Positions 48,850 to 59,344 of a DNA stretch of 64,000 bases are shown in pieces; position 1 is the first letter of the stretch, and each line of letters begins with the position of its first letter. Source of the stretch: Gammaproteobacteria bacterium (GTDB lineage: Bacteria > Pseudomonadota > Gammaproteobacteria > Ga0077554 > Ga007554). The DNA lies in NCBI GenBank assembly GCA_021731145.1, contig JAKFXX010000001.1, forward strand, positions 1-64,000. Reading direction: 5' to 3'. The translations under genes were made by a program, and so were the position numbers. The notes beneath the pieces are model-generated. The model was not told the DNA's origin. It worked only from the letters and a program-made list of their open reading frames with translations, and did no database searches.

Positions 48850-48977
48850 CCGTTAACCTACCCTATTCGCTGAGAGAGAATATTTAAAAAAACAATGGTT
48901 TGAGCGGTGATATTAATGTGACGAGTATCAGGCACTTTAGGGTGCGCTCCAACCAGGCATGGGGAGCTGTTACGGGG

Positions 48978-49021
48978 TTGCATGTAACGAACATCGTGCT
49001 TATAATTGTGTTTCATGTAAC
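48978..49021 (+). promoter_or_regulatory. Sigma-70-like promoter and CATGTAAC repeats upstream of mazEF
   Basis: TTGCAT (48978-48983) and a perfect TATAAT (49001-49006) are separated by 17 bp. Identical CATGTAAC octamers at 48981-48988 and 49014-49021 bracket the promoter, 33 bp apart, which is three helical turns. They are good candidates for the operator at which the MazEF complex represses its own operon. Confidence 0.65.
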
Positions 49022-49043
49022 AACAGATGATTGAGGTGGTATC

Positions 49044-49256
49044 ATGAAGACAAGCACTTCTGAGCGCGTGCAAAAGCATCGGGCAGGCTTACGTGCCTCT
49101 GGGCTGCGCCCGGTACAGATTTGGGTGCCGGATACCCGCCGTCCAGGTTTTGCCGAGGAATGCCGCCGCCAGTCGCGCCTGGTGCACGACGACCCGCACG
49201 AGAAGGAAACCCTTGAATGGCTGGCCGCCGCTGCTGACACGGACGGCTGGGAATGA
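49044..49256 (+). CDS. mazE: MazE-family antitoxin (DUF3018)
   Basis: A 70-residue protein of the DUF3018 antitoxin family: SERVQKHRAGLRASGLRPVQ, IWVPDTRRPGFAEECRRQ and ETLEWLAAAADTDGWE. The N-terminal half should bind DNA and the acidic C-terminal half the toxin. Its TGA overlaps the mazF ATG (ATGA). GAGGTGGT upstream of ATG 49044 is the ribosome site. Confidence 0.9.
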   Translation: MKTSTSERVQKHRAGLRASGLRPVQIWVPDTRRPGFAEECRRQSRLVHDDPHEKETLEWLAAAADTDGWE

Positions 49257-49576
49257 GGCGGGGCGACCTCGTCACAATTGCCCTGCAAGGCCACTACGGC
49301 AAGCCACGCCCGGCGCTGGTCATACAGTCAGACCTATTCGATGAACATCCATCCGTTACGATCTTGCCCGTGACTAGCGAGCTGCGGGAAACCCCCTTGT
49401 TCCGTATCATCGTACAGCCGAACGCCGGCAACGGCCTGCAGAAGCCCTCCCAGATCATGGTCGACAAGGTACAGACCATTCCCCGCGAAAAGATCGGCAA
49501 TACCGTCGGTCGACTGGACGACGAAAGCCTGTTGGCCGTCAATCGCGCCTTGGCGGTGTTCCTGGGCTTCGCATGA
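49253..49576 (+). CDS. mazF: MazF/PemK-family endoribonuclease toxin
   Basis: A 107-residue PemK/MazF toxin with MRRGDLVTIALQGHYGKPRP (catalytic Arg region), ALVIQSDLF, TILPVTSEL, KPSQIMVDKVQTIPREKIG and LAVNRALAVFLG. It cleaves mRNA at short sequence motifs. All conserved segments are present, so it appears functional. It is translationally coupled to mazE. Confidence 0.93.
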   Translation: MRRGDLVTIALQGHYGKPRPALVIQSDLFDEHPSVTILPVTSELRETPLFRIIVQPNAGNGLQKPSQIMVDKVQTIPREKIGNTVGRLDDESLLAVNRALAVFLGFA

Positions 49577-49651
49577 GTCGCTCTTCGCTTGAGGGATGAG
49601 TGATGTAGTGTTAGATTTCGTGGCACTGACGGAATTCATGAAATATTCGGT

Positions 49652-52094: not shown

Positions 52095-52300
52095 GATGAA
52101 ATATCATCCTGGAAACAGCGGTTGGACGTTGCGCCACCCGTAACCACCGTATAGGTGGCTACAGGTACGGGACAGAACAAGCGATCAGGTCGAGCTAAAG
52201 GGATTGCGCTCGCCAGCTCGACCTGGTCAGCTTGATCAAGACTTCTCCGGCGACATCCCTGGTGTAGCCACGGACGAGTATGGCCTGGGATTCCTGCGGT
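52095..52300. promoter_or_regulatory. Region upstream of copA with two inverted repeats
   Basis: Contains the palindrome CCACC-GTATA-GGTGG (52144-52158), about 50 bp before the copA start, a plausible operator. A second inverted repeat, GATCAGGTCGAGCT (52183-52196) with AGCTCGACCTGGTC (52215-52228), may end transcription of the upstream leftward DUF4276 gene. The sequence 52204-52300 is open on both strands and may be decayed coding DNA. Confidence 0.4.
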
Positions 52301-52924
52301 TCATCGTGCGCCCAAGGCTTCAACAAAGCGCTTTGCCCAAGGAGATGCTTGCGTCACCTTGTCCGGGTCGATCATCGCCAGCAACTTGAAGGAGTGCTCT
52401 CCTTTGCCGTACTGAGCCTTGGTCTTGCAAGCGCGTGTGGCCTTTGCAAGTGACTGATACACCTCCTGCTTGGCGACGGATTCCACCGTGTTGGCTGCGG
52501 CTGGCAATTGGTTATCTTGGAAGCCTTGCCCAAAAAAAGATTTCAAAACTGCCCTGTCCGCCAGAAACCAGTTTTCCATGCACTGAACCATCAGATGGCA
52601 CTGCAACTCATCAGCTTTTTCAGGCTTTGACCATTCATCGCCCTGTCTTTGTGCCAAGTGTTCCCATGGCAGCCAAGCATCGGGCTGACCATGCTGGTGC
52701 TGAGTTGCAACGGGGGCTTCGCTATCCACCAGCAAAAAAGCGGGCTCTCCCGTTTTGAGCGCCACACAGAAAGACTCGTAAGCATCACGGCGGCTGCCGC
52801 AGGCCACAATACGGGGCATCCGGCCTTTGAGACCGACTTGTTCCAGAAAATTGGCGAAACCTTCACGGCACGCTGCTCTCAATGCAGCAGTATCGCCACC
52901 GCCCTCAACATAGAGCTTCACCAT
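52301..52924 (-). CDS. DUF4276-like TOPRIM-type protein, partner of the adjacent ATPase
   Basis: A 207-residue protein. The N-terminus MVKLYVEGGGDTAALRAAC has the Glu of a TOPRIM first motif. PAFLLVDSEAPV is the acidic second motif (DxE in place of DxD). LQCHLMVQCMENWFLADRAV is a DUF4276 signature, followed by basic motifs near the C-terminus. DUF4276 proteins are predicted nucleases encoded with AAA ATPases. ATG 52924 overlaps the ATPase stop by 7 bp (ATGGTGA) and follows a G-rich ribosome site. I prefer this to the longer frame from 52954. Confidence 0.82.
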   Translation of the reverse strand: MVKLYVEGGGDTAALRAACREGFANFLEQVGLKGRMPRIVACGSRRDAYESFCVALKTGEPAFLLVDSEAPVATQHQHGQPDAWLPWEHLAQRQGDEWSKPEKADELQCHLMVQCMENWFLADRAVLKSFFGQGFQDNQLPAAANTVESVAKQEVYQSLAKATRACKTKAQYGKGEHSFKLLAMIDPDKVTQASPWAKRFVEALGAR

Positions 52925-54084
52925 CTGGTCCCCCCGATCTCGCCGCGCGTCCAAAGCTGCCCTAGACGGTATTTTTCCAGCCAGGGTTTCAGCTTTTCAG
53001 CATCCAAACGCTTCAGAACCGTGCCTGTTGCCTGCTTCTCAGCAACCAATACCGCTTCCGGCTGATCGGTCATGGCGTCCACCAGCACATCAGAATGTGT
53101 GGTGACGATGAGCTGGCAACGCTCGGAGGCTTCCTTCAACAAATCGGCCAGCGTCGGCAGCACATCTGGATGTAAACCAAGTTCGGGTTCTTCAATGCAC
53201 ACCAGCGGCGGCGGACTGGGGTGGCAGAGGATGGCAAGCAAACAGAGGTAACGCAACGTGCCATCGGAGAGGCGCGTCGCCGGAACGGTAAATTGGCCTT
53301 CATGAAAGAACACCTGAACGGTACCGCCTTCAATTTGCACATCGTAGTCGTCGATGCCGTCGTACAGTGCCTTGAGTGCCTTCAGCAATCGGGCCTTGAC
53401 CACGGGGTCGCGCCGCAGGCGATTCAGCACCAGGCCAAGGTTGCTGGCGTCGGGTTCCAATATGTCGTTCGGCAAATCAGCCTTCTGCGGTAGACGCGGG
53501 GCCGTGTAGCGGCCGAAGCTCCATTCGCGGTACAGGCGGATTCTAGGCAGCGTCTCGGCAAGATAGGTGATCTCGGGGTATTGATCGGGGTCGCGGCGCT
53601 GAGCGAGGATGGAACGCTCAACATCGATATCTTCGTGCTGCAGGGTGCGATTTTCGCCTTTCACATTCAATGTGGGGCGGCCGTTGTTGAAGTGGTAATA
53701 AAAATAGGGCTGAGGGTGCTTTGCATTCGCTGGCTTCTCGTTTTCAATCCGCTCATCGACGATTTCAAAACGTTGTCCCACCTCTGTAAACGACATCTGA
53801 TAACGCAGGTTCTGAGGTCCTTTTGGATTTTCAACCACAACATCCAATGATGCTGTAGGTGTGCCTTTGGCTCCTTTCCAAAGCCAGTCACGTACACCAC
53901 CGCCTTCACGGATGGGCTTAAGCAACTGCTCTGGGGCACTGCGAAGCAGCTCGATGGACTCCAACAAATTCGACTTCCCCGAGCCATTGGGTCCAATAAT
54001 CACGTTCAACGGCCTAAGAGGGACCGCCTCGCCTGAATCCCCAAAGCTCAAAAAATTGTTCAGCTTGATGGCGTGTATCAACAT
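52918..54084 (-). CDS. AAA_21 / RecF-OLD-type ATPase
   Basis: A 388-residue SMC/RecF-like ATPase lacking a long coiled coil. Walker A is GPNGSGKSN at about residues 31-39, the signature LSDGTLRYL, Walker B VCIEEPELGLHP and the switch His in IVTTHSDVLVDAM. It has no fused nuclease domain; the overlapping DUF4276 gene would supply it, as in split OLD or PARIS-type systems. The ATG at 54084 is preceded by TTTGGAGAACGGCC. It is the first gene of the leftward pair. Confidence 0.9.
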   Translation of the reverse strand: MLIHAIKLNNFLSFGDSGEAVPLRPLNVIIGPNGSGKSNLLESIELLRSAPEQLLKPIREGGGVRDWLWKGAKGTPTASLDVVVENPKGPQNLRYQMSFTEVGQRFEIVDERIENEKPANAKHPQPYFYYHFNNGRPTLNVKGENRTLQHEDIDVERSILAQRRDPDQYPEITYLAETLPRIRLYREWSFGRYTAPRLPQKADLPNDILEPDASNLGLVLNRLRRDPVVKARLLKALKALYDGIDDYDVQIEGGTVQVFFHEGQFTVPATRLSDGTLRYLCLLAILCHPSPPPLVCIEEPELGLHPDVLPTLADLLKEASERCQLIVTTHSDVLVDAMTDQPEAVLVAEKQATGTVLKRLDAEKLKPWLEKYRLGQLWTRGEIGGTRW

Positions 54085-54164
54085 GGCCGTTCTCCAAATT
54101 TATTCGACAACAAACCGCAGCGTGATTGCGCCTTTACCCTTGCAACGCTCGTCGAGAAAAGTAA

Positions 54165-54273
54165 GCACGAACACATTATCCCTGATCCAGGGCGATATTA
54201 GAACCAGATGAAACATGGTTATGTGAAACCGGCTGTGGAATGGCCTCATTCGAGTTTCCAGCACTATGCGTAG
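54165..54273 (+). pseudogene. Decayed C-terminal fragment of a REP-associated tyrosine transposase (copy 1)
   Basis: Reading 54202-54273 in frame gives NQMKHGYVKPAVEWPHSSF, then QHYA and a TAG stop. This matches the conserved C-terminal block of RAYT/TnpA_REP transposases (NPVKHGxVxxxxDWPWSSF). A stop codon directly precedes it, and the upstream HEHIIPDP segment seems to be the deleted WEHxIRDE region. It is about 80 percent identical over 105 bp to copy 2 at 55418. A REP-like palindrome follows at 54280. Confidence 0.72.
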
Positions 54274-54279
54274 TTTGAT

Positions 54280-54300
54280 CGTGCGCACAGCGCACGCTAC
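54280..54300. repeat. REP-like palindrome next to transposase remnant 1
   Basis: CGTGCGCACAGCGCACGCTA (54280-54299) is palindromic around GTGCG/CGCAC. It recurs in inverted orientation, with one mismatch, at 55403-55422. Its reverse complement, GTAGCGTGCG..., resembles the GTAGGGTGCG repeats at 45874 and 63642. Confidence 0.6.
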
Positions 54301-54506
54301 ACTTGCTGAGAATGAAAAAGTGAGGGCGCATAAACGAGGCTGCGGGGGCATGCCAACCCTGACAGTACTATTGGTATAATATACGGGCGCAGAAGCACAC
54401 AATACCATTGCGTATCAAACAATTACGATACATGATGGATGCCCGCGTTATTAAAGAATGCTCGGGCGCTGGCGCCCGGCTATTACCTGTTAGAGATTCA
54501 TGGTCC

Positions 54507-55322
54507 ATGGCTAAGTCATCAAAGATCGGTCACTGCCACCTATGCGGGAGCTACGGGAAGCTATCCTTCGAACACGTGCCACCCGAGTCCGCGTTTAATA
54601 ATCAGAAGGTGGTCACACCTGATGCTAAGAAAGTGTTTGAACTCACCAACCTTGATGATCTTCGCATTCTTTCGGGGAAGCAGTCCCAACGCGGCAAAGG
54701 CGGTTATACACTATGCGAGCGCTGCAACAACTTGACTGGTCACTGGTATGGGTCGAACTATGCAGCCTGGGCCTTTCAGGGGGCGGCCTATCTGGTAAGA
54801 TCTAATGGAATGCTACAGCTAGCATACCCGTACCATTTGCTGCCACTGAGAGTCATCAAACAAATTGTCTGCATGTTCTTCAGCATCAACTCGCCAAGGT
54901 TCCGAGAAGCCCATCCGGCGCTGGAGAGGTTTGTCCTCAACAAAGAAGCAAAATATCTCCCCCCAGACATCCAGATCTACGCAGGCTACTTGCTGTCGGA
55001 CCGAAGCCGCGCAGCTGGAATTACTGGTTCGCTTCAACTTGACGAAAGCTCAGGCGTTTCACATCTCCGGACCTACTCAGAGATTTCATTTCGACCATTT
55101 TCGTACATCCTGAGCATTAAATCTCCGCCTCCAGAGCATCCCTTGCTTGACATATCGTTCTTTGCGCAATACGGCTACGATGATTTCACGACATTGCAGT
55201 TGCCCATTCCAGTTCTCTCCGTTTACACGCCGTTCCCGGGTGACTTTCGGAGCCGTGAGGCCGTATTGCGAGAGTCTGGAGGGCGCAATCTCTCTCTTAA
55301 GAAACACCTACAAAGCGATTGA
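54507..55322 (+). CDS. HNH-like zinc protein with EHVPP motif
   Basis: A 271-residue protein from ATG 54507 (MAKSSKIGHC). A zinc ribbon forms from C10-x2-C13 and C70-x2-C73, enclosing FEHVPPESAFN at 21-31. This is the degenerate HNH arrangement in which the first His pair is Glu-His. The remaining 190 residues are not recognised and lack TM helices. A function as a nuclease is plausible but not shown. The gene is divergent from the ATPase pair and is bracketed by two transposase remnants, which points to an acquired or rearranged segment. Confidence 0.75.
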   Translation: MAKSSKIGHCHLCGSYGKLSFEHVPPESAFNNQKVVTPDAKKVFELTNLDDLRILSGKQSQRGKGGYTLCERCNNLTGHWYGSNYAAWAFQGAAYLVRSNGMLQLAYPYHLLPLRVIKQIVCMFFSINSPRFREAHPALERFVLNKEAKYLPPDIQIYAGYLLSDRSRAAGITGSLQLDESSGVSHLRTYSEISFRPFSYILSIKSPPPEHPLLDISFFAQYGYDDFTTLQLPIPVLSVYTPFPGDFRSREAVLRESGGRNLSLKKHLQSD

Positions 55323-55417
55323 TTAGCATGAGCGTTTCAAGCGGGCTATTCAGTGCTGGCGATCTTCATACCAAGCTTCTCGGCGCGCTTGGTCAGCCAG
55401 CGTAGCATGCGCTGTGC

Positions 55418-55525
55418 GCACGAACACAGTATCCTTGATCCATGGTCAGATTGGAATCCGGTGAAACATCGTTACGTGAAACCAGTTGTGGAATAGCCTC
55501 ATTCAAGTTTCCACAGCCATGCACT
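55418..55525 (+). pseudogene. Decayed C-terminal fragment of a REP-associated tyrosine transposase (copy 2)
   Basis: The frame from 55452 reads WNPVKHRYVKPVVE, then TAG where TGG (Trp) is expected, then [10 protein letters not shown]. Together these recreate the RAYT motif NPVKHxxVxxxxxWPxSSFH. A REP-like palindrome (55403-55422) abuts its left end. It has the same internal shortening as copy 1, so the two copies share an already damaged ancestor. Confidence 0.72.
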
Positions 55526-57574: not shown

Positions 57575-57841
57575 AGAGCCTGTCTGTGAATAAATCATCC
57601 CTGCGTTGCCGCCCCAAAACACGCCAGGCAAGGCGCGAGCCGCGATGTTTGGTAGTTCCAAATGAGCGGCGAGCAACGCTGCATGGCGTGTTTTGGGGCG
57701 CAACCCGAAGGGACGGGGCCGGTTTTGCGCAGTGCGGCGTCACGCTTCGCTCATGTGCAACAAGCACACTACGCTCAGCCTTCCTTGCCCTGCGCAAAAC
57801 CGGCCTCCGTCGCATGGATGATTTATTCACAGACAGGCTCT
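57575..57841. mobile_element. 267-bp MITE with perfect 26-bp terminal inverted repeats and TA target duplication
   Basis: Ends 57575-57600 and 57816-57841 are perfect 26-bp inverted copies (AGAGCCTGTCTGTGAATAAA...). TA flanks both sides (57573-57574 and 57842-57843), the target duplication made by IS630/Tc1-type transposases. The interior holds two further inverted pairs, GCCCCAAAACACGCCA/TGGCGTGTTTTGGGGC and GCCGGTTTTGCGCAG/CTGCGCAAAACCGGC-like, and encodes no transposase. It sits between the second permease and the ATPase gene of the yej operon and supplies the last four codons and stop of the permease. Confidence 0.88.
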
Positions 57842-59344
57842 TAGCCCACTCCTGCGCAAACGTGGATCAAAGGCGTCGCGTACTGCATCGGCAAAGAGAT
57901 TCGCCGACAGCACCAGGACAAACATGAATATAAACGCGGCGAGCAATGGCCACCAAACAATCGGTTCGCGCGCCATCTCCAGACGCGCACTGTTAATCAT
58001 ATTCCCCCAACTGTTCATGGTCGGATCGACACCAACGCCGACATAGGACAACACCGCCTCCGCCAGCACCAGGGCGCTGAAATCCAGCACTATCGAGATC
58101 AACACGATGTGCATGACATTCGGCAGTATATGACGGCCTATGATCTTGAAATGACCCACTCCAAACGCCACAGCCGCCTGGATATAATCCATCTCGCGCA
58201 GCTTCATGGCCTCACCGCGCAGCAATCGGCATAACCCCGTCCAGCTCGTGACACCCAGAATGATGCACAGAAACAGCAGGCGCAGATCAGCGCGTGCCGC
58301 CGCCGTTTCAAACAACTCCGGATGTGTCGCCATATAGACCTGCAACATCAGTATGGCCGCCGCGATCAACAAGACACCAGGTATCGAACTCAGTGTGGTA
58401 TAGACATATTGAATGACATCGTCCGCCAAGCCGCGAAAGTAACCTGCGGCGATTCCTGCAAGAATGGCAAACGGCAGCATGACCAGGGTAGTAAGTGTGC
58501 CGATCACCAGTCCGGTTCGGATACTCTTTAGCGTTTGATAGAAAGTATCCTGCCCAACCTTGTCAGTACCGAAAATATGATATTTCCCCGATAGATTCAC
58601 CACCAATATCGCCAGCAGAATCAAAATGGCTGTGGTTAATAAAATCACATGCCACGGAATCTCGGTCCGTCCACGCATCACCAGCCCAAACATTTCCGAT
58701 ACTGAGCGATGGTGCCGCCGTGCCAGCCACGATATCAATAGCGCGGTAAAAACAGCCCATACCACCACGCCTTCAATAACAGACAACAATGATGTGTTCA
58801 GAATGTCGCCAGAACGCTCTTGTTCAGGATTATTCAGATGGGCGCCACCATGCTGAAGACGTGGATAGAGGCGCACCTTGCTGCCATCGGGAAGATCCAC
58901 TGTTTCCTTGACATAAAGGTGGGCGGCGAAGGGTGCGGAATAACTCTTCTCAACACCTTCACGGACAGGCGTCGCCATCCAGTCCAGAACGCTCAACACA
59001 TCATTTGAATACTGCTGTTCTGTGGATTGCTTAACATCAGGCAGCGGCATTCTAAAATGCACGGAATCCAGCAGCCCGATAACAAGATAAGCACTGAGGA
59101 AGACCACGGCGACTACACCTACGCGGTCACGCGCCACTTCACGCCACGGCGCGCGCAGGTGTTCATGCTGGCTGGCATAGGCGGCGAATCCCACGCACAT
59201 CGCGCATAAAATAAAGATCAACGCGTCCGTCCATAACACGACAAATCTGACGGGCAAAAACGATACTGCAAAAACAAGCAGCACGGACGCCGACGCAAGC
59301 GCCAGTGCCGTTCTGCCTATAATTTTTTTTGTTGCCATCAACAC
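57827..59344 (-). CDS. yejE: Peptide ABC importer permease, YejE-like
   Basis: A 505-residue inner-membrane protein. Two or three extra N-terminal helices and a periplasmic stretch (about 100-180) precede the BPD_transp_1 core. The core includes FGTDKVGQDTFYQTLKSIR and the EAA-loop region GEAMKLREMDYIQAAVAFG. The natural end would be ...DPRLRRSGLRMTLSK. The MITE insertion changes this to RRSGLRACL, altering only the last few residues. It begins 3 bp after the upstream permease gene, so function is probably retained. Confidence 0.9.
   Translation of the reverse strand: MLMATKKIIGRTALALASASVLLVFAVSFLPVRFVVLWTDALIFILCAMCVGFAAYASQHEHLRAPWREVARDRVGVVAVVFLSAYLVIGLLDSVHFRMPLPDVKQSTEQQYSNDVLSVLDWMATPVREGVEKSYSAPFAAHLYVKETVDLPDGSKVRLYPRLQHGGAHLNNPEQERSGDILNTSLLSVIEGVVVWAVFTALLISWLARRHHRSVSEMFGLVMRGRTEIPWHVILLTTAILILLAILVVNLSGKYHIFGTDKVGQDTFYQTLKSIRTGLVIGTLTTLVMLPFAILAGIAAGYFRGLADDVIQYVYTTLSSIPGVLLIAAAILMLQVYMATHPELFETAAARADLRLLFLCIILGVTSWTGLCRLLRGEAMKLREMDYIQAAVAFGVGHFKIIGRHILPNVMHIVLISIVLDFSALVLAEAVLSYVGVGVDPTMNSWGNMINSARLEMAREPIVWWPLLAAFIFMFVLVLSANLFADAVRDAFDPRLRRSGLRACL

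Follow-up and report, generated by a model that had tools for sequence, protein, structure and literature searches.

A free-standing copy of the candidate defence system HEC-01 pairs an OLD-type ATPase with a predicted TOPRIM-fold DUF4276 protein in a gammaproteobacterial genome

PARIS, OLD and Gabija each combine an OLD-type ABC ATPase with a TOPRIM active site, and they differ in how the two are joined. In PARIS they are separate proteins, AriA and AriB (the latter of about 300 aa), and the TOPRIM protein cuts tRNA; anti-restriction proteins, Ocr among them, elicit a response from PARIS-type pairs (PMC12839542). In OLD of Class 1/2 (Thermus scotoductus, B. pseudomallei) the two form one fused polypeptide, as they do in GajA of Gabija, which is paired with the helicase GajB; both OLD and GajA cut DNA (PMC10568477). 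In addition, a 2026 survey of BREX (PMC12839542) records OLD-ABC/TOPRIM pairs at BREX loci and proposes for them a suicidal backup role, so that a pairing of this kind, which an earlier note on the DNA examined here had not known as a well characterised system, is already on record.

The pair considered here lies in a 64,000-nucleotide stretch of a Gammaproteobacteria genome that was analysed as a whole (hereafter, the window). The features to which the text refers are as follows.

52918-54084, minus strand: OLD-type ABC ATPase (HEC-01A; Pfam AAA_21/AAA_15), 388 aa, intact open reading frame
52301-52924, minus strand: TOPRIM-fold DUF4276 protein (HEC-01B), a predicted metal-dependent nuclease, 207 aa from ATG, intact
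52918-52924, minus strand: overlap of the ATPase and DUF4276 genes, exactly 7 bp
52127-55394, no strand: inserted segment holding the pair and an HNH-like gene, absent from congener G006
54408-55322, divergent from the pair: HNH-like gene with the motifs CxxC...EHVPP...CxxCN; Pfam HNH_5 below threshold
49044-49576: MazE-like/PemK toxin-antitoxin pair (Pfam)
Elsewhere in the genome, locus L115 (G000:C5:26000-36000): second HEC-01 pair, with its DUF4276 gene at C5:31422-32030

By sequence, the window pair is a member of an already catalogued candidate system, HEC-01. Both proteins match its models end to end in PADLOC-DB, a resource to which the earlier note had pointed: the ATPase matches HEC-01A model PDLC04177 (E 3.9e-195, protein residues 1-388 on profile positions 3-393 of 393) and the DUF4276 protein matches HEC-01B model PDLC04201 (E 1.8e-84, residues 2-205 on positions 4-197 of 202), and the two genes are adjacent in the A-B order of HEC-01. 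The acronym HEC, 'Hma-embedded candidate', reportedly originates from a 2024 preprint by Payne et al. To our knowledge, the embedded location is not required by the PADLOC system definition of HEC-01. The window pair shares with HEC-01 these matches, the gene order and relatives embedded in defence operons, and differs in being free-standing, outside any BREX or Hma operon. Membership in MADS was rejected, as the ATPase scored 98.6 bits against MAD3 where the cut-off is 420. As in PARIS, the ATPase and the TOPRIM protein are separate; however, the DUF4276 protein is shorter than AriB, and the top-scoring PADLOC models of both window proteins are those of HEC-01 rather than AriA and AriB, with the ATPase reaching 131.8 bits against AriA versus 646.4 bits against HEC-01A and the DUF4276 protein matching HEC-01B models only, at E <= 1.

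According to secondary sources, several HEC systems (e.g., HEC-06) have antiviral activity, and one of these sources places HEC-04, a fused ATPase-TOPRIM, in that group (PMC12111858). HEC-01 as a defence system receives no more than a brief mention, in a single genome survey. No report of HEC-01 itself being assayed was found in the literature searched, the Payne et al. preprint lying outside that search, nor was any experiment on the window pair or a close homologue found there. DUF4276 is named in no paper of the same literature, including the main text of the BREX survey (PMC12839542). The earlier note's view that the pairing is not well characterised therefore holds as regards functional study, but the pairing does carry a name, as a PADLOC candidate. 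What is added here is the TOPRIM assignment of DUF4276, with candidate active-site residues, and evidence from inside and outside BREX that the pair is a portable cassette.

Both genes belong to their Pfam families at scores above the curated cut-offs (AAA_21, E 1.6e-39; DUF4276, E 3.2e-28). The ATPase carries the full set of ABC motifs, namely a Walker A (GPNGSGKS, residues 31-38), a signature (LSDGT, 272-276), a Walker B (CIEEPELGLHP, 296-306) and an H-loop histidine (H330), every one of which is invariant in the first four homologues, and NCBIfam and PDB matches group it with SMC, RecF, OLD, PtuA and AriA. Because its C-terminus follows soon after the H-loop, the ATPase lacks a built-in nuclease domain, as had been read from the sequence before. 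The two proteins are encoded by separate open reading frames in different frames (54084-52918 and 52924-52301) rather than as one polypeptide, and the 7-bp overlap reported earlier is exact. This overlap is not fortuitous, since relatives have the same gene order, mostly with overlaps of 4 or 7 bp at a conserved start (larger listed overlaps stem from upstream alternative starts); the two genes are likely to be translationally coupled. Relatives comprised 81 loci, 80 from a scan of genomes and 1 from a scan of viruses, and the genome loci span Pseudomonadota, Chlorobiota, Chloroflexota, Planctomycetota, Spirochaetota, Thermodesulfobacteriota and others. In 80 of the 81, the gene immediately upstream, in the same orientation, encodes an ATPase homologue, the exception (L036) being cut by a contig end. 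The partnership is obligate, and a few copies appear broken (e.g., L048).

An AlphaFold model of the DUF4276 protein built on 71 homologues reached a pLDDT of 96.7; an earlier run on 4 sequences (pLDDT 62) was set aside. Sequence profiles of the protein returned nothing meaningful when compared with all PDB chains, and the TOPRIM call rests for that reason on structure comparison together with motif position. The top Foldseek match of the model was Thermus OLD (probability 0.98, at an E of only 0.013). When aligned with VIA-align, the model matched the TOPRIM of B. pseudomallei OLD best (Z 10.2), followed by PARIS AriB chain 8ux9_A (Z 9.3), with Thermus OLD third-best (Z 8.7), then AriB chain 8v46_D (Z 8.1) and Gabija GajA (Z 6.3-7.5), as compared with 4.9 for retron Eco8 and 4.3 and below for unrelated folds. 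DUF4276 is therefore predicted to have a TOPRIM nuclease-like fold, in keeping with the TOPRIM-like motifs noted previously. In these alignments residue 1 of the model falls on BpOLD 394, AriB 20, TsOLD 371 and GajA 373, and, presuming no gap within the first seven residues, E7 maps at an offset of +6 to the published TOPRIM glutamates BpOLD E400, AriB E26, TsOLD E377 and GajA E379, four agreements that are unlikely to arise by chance. The model thus shares the metal-A glutamate and an acidic pair with OLD, from which it differs in being encoded by its own gene and in its second acidic motif, LLVDSE, which in all 71 sequences is a DxE (D67, E69) rather than the usual DxD. Along with E7, D67 and E69, the residues E117, R20, R45 and K174 are invariant in the 71 homologues; D11, which maps to BpOLD E404 and TsOLD D381, is present in 58 of them and is otherwise mostly N or E. 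E117 opens the helix that follows the core, 48 residues past E69, where in BpOLD the metal-B ligand E508 lies 51 residues past D457, and from this order and spacing the two would be equivalent. On the model, E7, D11, D67, E69 and E117 are candidate catalytic residues.

We consider it likely that the window pair is a free-standing HEC-01 copy that forms a two-protein antiphage system working like PARIS or OLD, and the pair is very probably antiviral. By analogy with those systems we infer a defence function, sensing by the ATPase, nuclease activity of the DUF4276 protein, an abortive outcome and a nucleic acid substrate. The ATPase would probably dimerise on ATP and act as both sensor and cage, and the DUF4276 protein would be the effector, a two-metal nuclease that is released or activated when the ATPase registers infection and that would cut host tRNA, or phage or host DNA. 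The most likely outcome would be that the phage is stopped and the infected cell sacrificed. The module moves into and out of BREX operons, and there it probably backs up a main system that phages have blocked.

As to the substrate, the modelled fold does not decide between a tRNA target, as in AriB, and a DNA target, as in OLD. One reading, a sub-hypothesis of the PARIS/OLD-like explanation and not exclusive of it, is that the DUF4276 protein is an OLD- or Gabija-like DNase that nicks or degrades phage DNA, possibly under nucleotide regulation, with the ATPase controlling access to the DNA and an outcome that may not be abortive. We regard this as a serious possibility that falls somewhat short of probable. 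Its closest structural match is a DNA-cleaving TOPRIM, that of B. pseudomallei OLD, and its invariant E117 may occupy the place of the metal-B ligand of that enzyme. However, the advantage in Z over AriB is slight, and differences of about 1 amount to ties; the DUF4276 protein is separate, as is the tRNA-cutting TOPRIM of PARIS, whereas those of OLD and GajA are fused; and the position two residues before E117 holds C or V, with no evident counterpart of the S/T metal-B ligand of OLD (T506/S478). Gabija further differs in its helicase partner, and no UvrD-like GajB is present beside the window pair, the neighbours of which are copA, the HNH-like gene and yejF.

The surroundings of the relatives bear on the PARIS/OLD-like explanation as well. 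A total of 26 of the 81 loci are embedded in BREX, 24 of them holding at least two BREX core genes and the other two a single BREX gene, and this placement of about a third of the copies lends weight to the earlier proposal of a PARIS-like ATPase plus TOPRIM defence. A structural TOPRIM match and a defence context elsewhere, two of the points on which the earlier note had let its proposal stand or fall, were both found. The slot taken by the pair is mostly between brxC and a pglX-type methylase, in a type III-like layout (brxF-brxC-[pair]-pglX-type methylase-brxHII-pglZ) or a type I-like layout (brxA-brxB-brxC-[pair]-pglX), and in some of these operons a HEC-02B protein or a further ATPase like HEC-01A is also encoded. 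It speaks against the explanation that ordinary genes surround about half of the relatives. A few free-standing copies have type I RM subunits, DndH-like, PglX or MADS-like proteins nearby, most neighbours being ordinary, and PADLOC matches are only moderately more frequent in the neighbourhood of non-BREX copies than among distant genes (199 versus 69 families, the majority of them hit by 1-3 of 94 proteins).

Such contexts could also mean that the pair functions as an accessory that depends on BREX or RM systems and senses anti-restriction, in which case the window copy would be non-functional or would work with the RM systems of its genome. The BREX-embedded loci, the response of PARIS-type pairs to anti-restriction proteins and the presence of several N6-methyltransferase genes in the source genome are all consistent with this; yet two thirds of the copies have no BREX genes nearby, both window reading frames are intact and conserved, and the ATPase tree points to repeated independent life, which together make it unlikely. 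The BREX OLD-ABC/TOPRIM backup effectors (PMC12839542) resemble the window pair in architecture, and many of its relatives share their BREX location, but the window copy itself lies outside BREX, and the main text of that survey does not mention DUF4276 by name. Furthermore, no match to PglZ (PF08665) was found in the source genome, which is 99.99% complete, and a role as BREX backup cannot therefore apply to the window pair.

On the ATPase tree, BREX-embedded and free copies interleave, requiring a minimum of 13 changes, 8 of which are imposed by branches with good support. With labels shuffled, about 20 changes were needed, indicating that location is also partly inherited. The window ATPase has its nearest relative (87% identity) in a Sulfuricellaceae genome, where the copy is embedded in BREX. 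The pair is therefore an independent cassette that has made at least eight moves between BREX operons and free sites. On the single IMG/VR contig among the loci (L090), the pair sits in a type III-like BREX operon that is nearly complete and very closely resembles the one on a Burkholderiaceae chromosome (L053); the contig may be chromosomal DNA labelled as viral, or may reflect a recent transfer. A phage home for the pair is thus unsupported, and a tblastn search of phage and plasmid records with the DUF4276 protein gave no match.

Within the class, a close form of the pair occurs in 4 of 369 genomes and the wider DUF4276 family in 39. The congener G006 has an empty site, with yejF and copA 166 bp apart and no pair, and in G007, of the same family, yejF adjoins copA at 122 bp. 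The alignment with G006 jumps from position 55395 to 52126 of the window, so that the window carries an insertion of 3268 bp, comprising the pair together with the HNH-like gene. Composition gave no sign of a recent transfer (GC 55.1% in the pair, 55.2% in the window). The second HEC-01 pair of the genome (PDLC04182/PDLC04205) is diverged and adjoins a purA-like gene, and congener G005 (L004) has a close copy of it with different neighbours. It is very improbable that the pair is a housekeeping or repair module of a RecF/SMC-like ATPase and a RecR/OLD-like TOPRIM protein rather than a defence system, since, although its ATPase motifs are common to SMC and RecF, an archaeal OLD-family ATPase is reported to have a cell-cycle role (PMC12796447) and many stand-alone copies adjoin metabolic genes, the pair is rare and scattered, is absent from congeners that show an empty site, occurs in two diverged copies in one genome and is embedded in BREX operons elsewhere.

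Neither of the neighbours to which the earlier note had drawn attention qualifies as a functional partner. The toxin-antitoxin pair, described there as lying next to the pair, is separated from it by copZ- and copA-like genes, and MazEF was rejected as a partner on this ground. The segment that holds it (48850-49644) is itself an insertion; at its site, the acetate kinase gene of the congeners G004 and G006 joins the copZ-like gene almost directly. The HNH-like gene is indeed the divergent neighbour of the pair, but its resemblance to HNH_5 is sub-threshold (E 0.076) and it is not a conserved partner: no homologue was found beside any other pair, no relative in 19 other, related genomes and no match in PADLOC, and its weak PHROG match is of unknown function. 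It was accordingly rejected as well. It is flanked by a 105-bp direct repeat (81%; 54165-54269 and 55418-55522), the resemblance of which to the yejF-copA intergenic sequence of G006 suggests two successive insertions. Further along, a 268-bp palindromic MITE-like element (57575-57842) with near-perfect terminal arms and a folding z-score of -13.9 lies between the yejF- and yejE-like genes; the genome holds three full copies (94-100%), and at this place the element is absent in G006 and present in G004.

In its most specific form, the proposal would be that HEC-01 is a portable sensor-effector cassette passing between the brxC/pglX slot of BREX and free sites, with a DxE TOPRIM effector, a trigger in the inactivation of a host restriction layer, and an RNA or DNA target unlike that of AriB, which we consider decidedly doubtful. 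The at least eight moves into or out of BREX mean that the pair is not an obligate part of BREX, and the predicted TOPRIM fold of DUF4276, a Pfam domain of unknown function, makes HEC-01 testable by point mutants.
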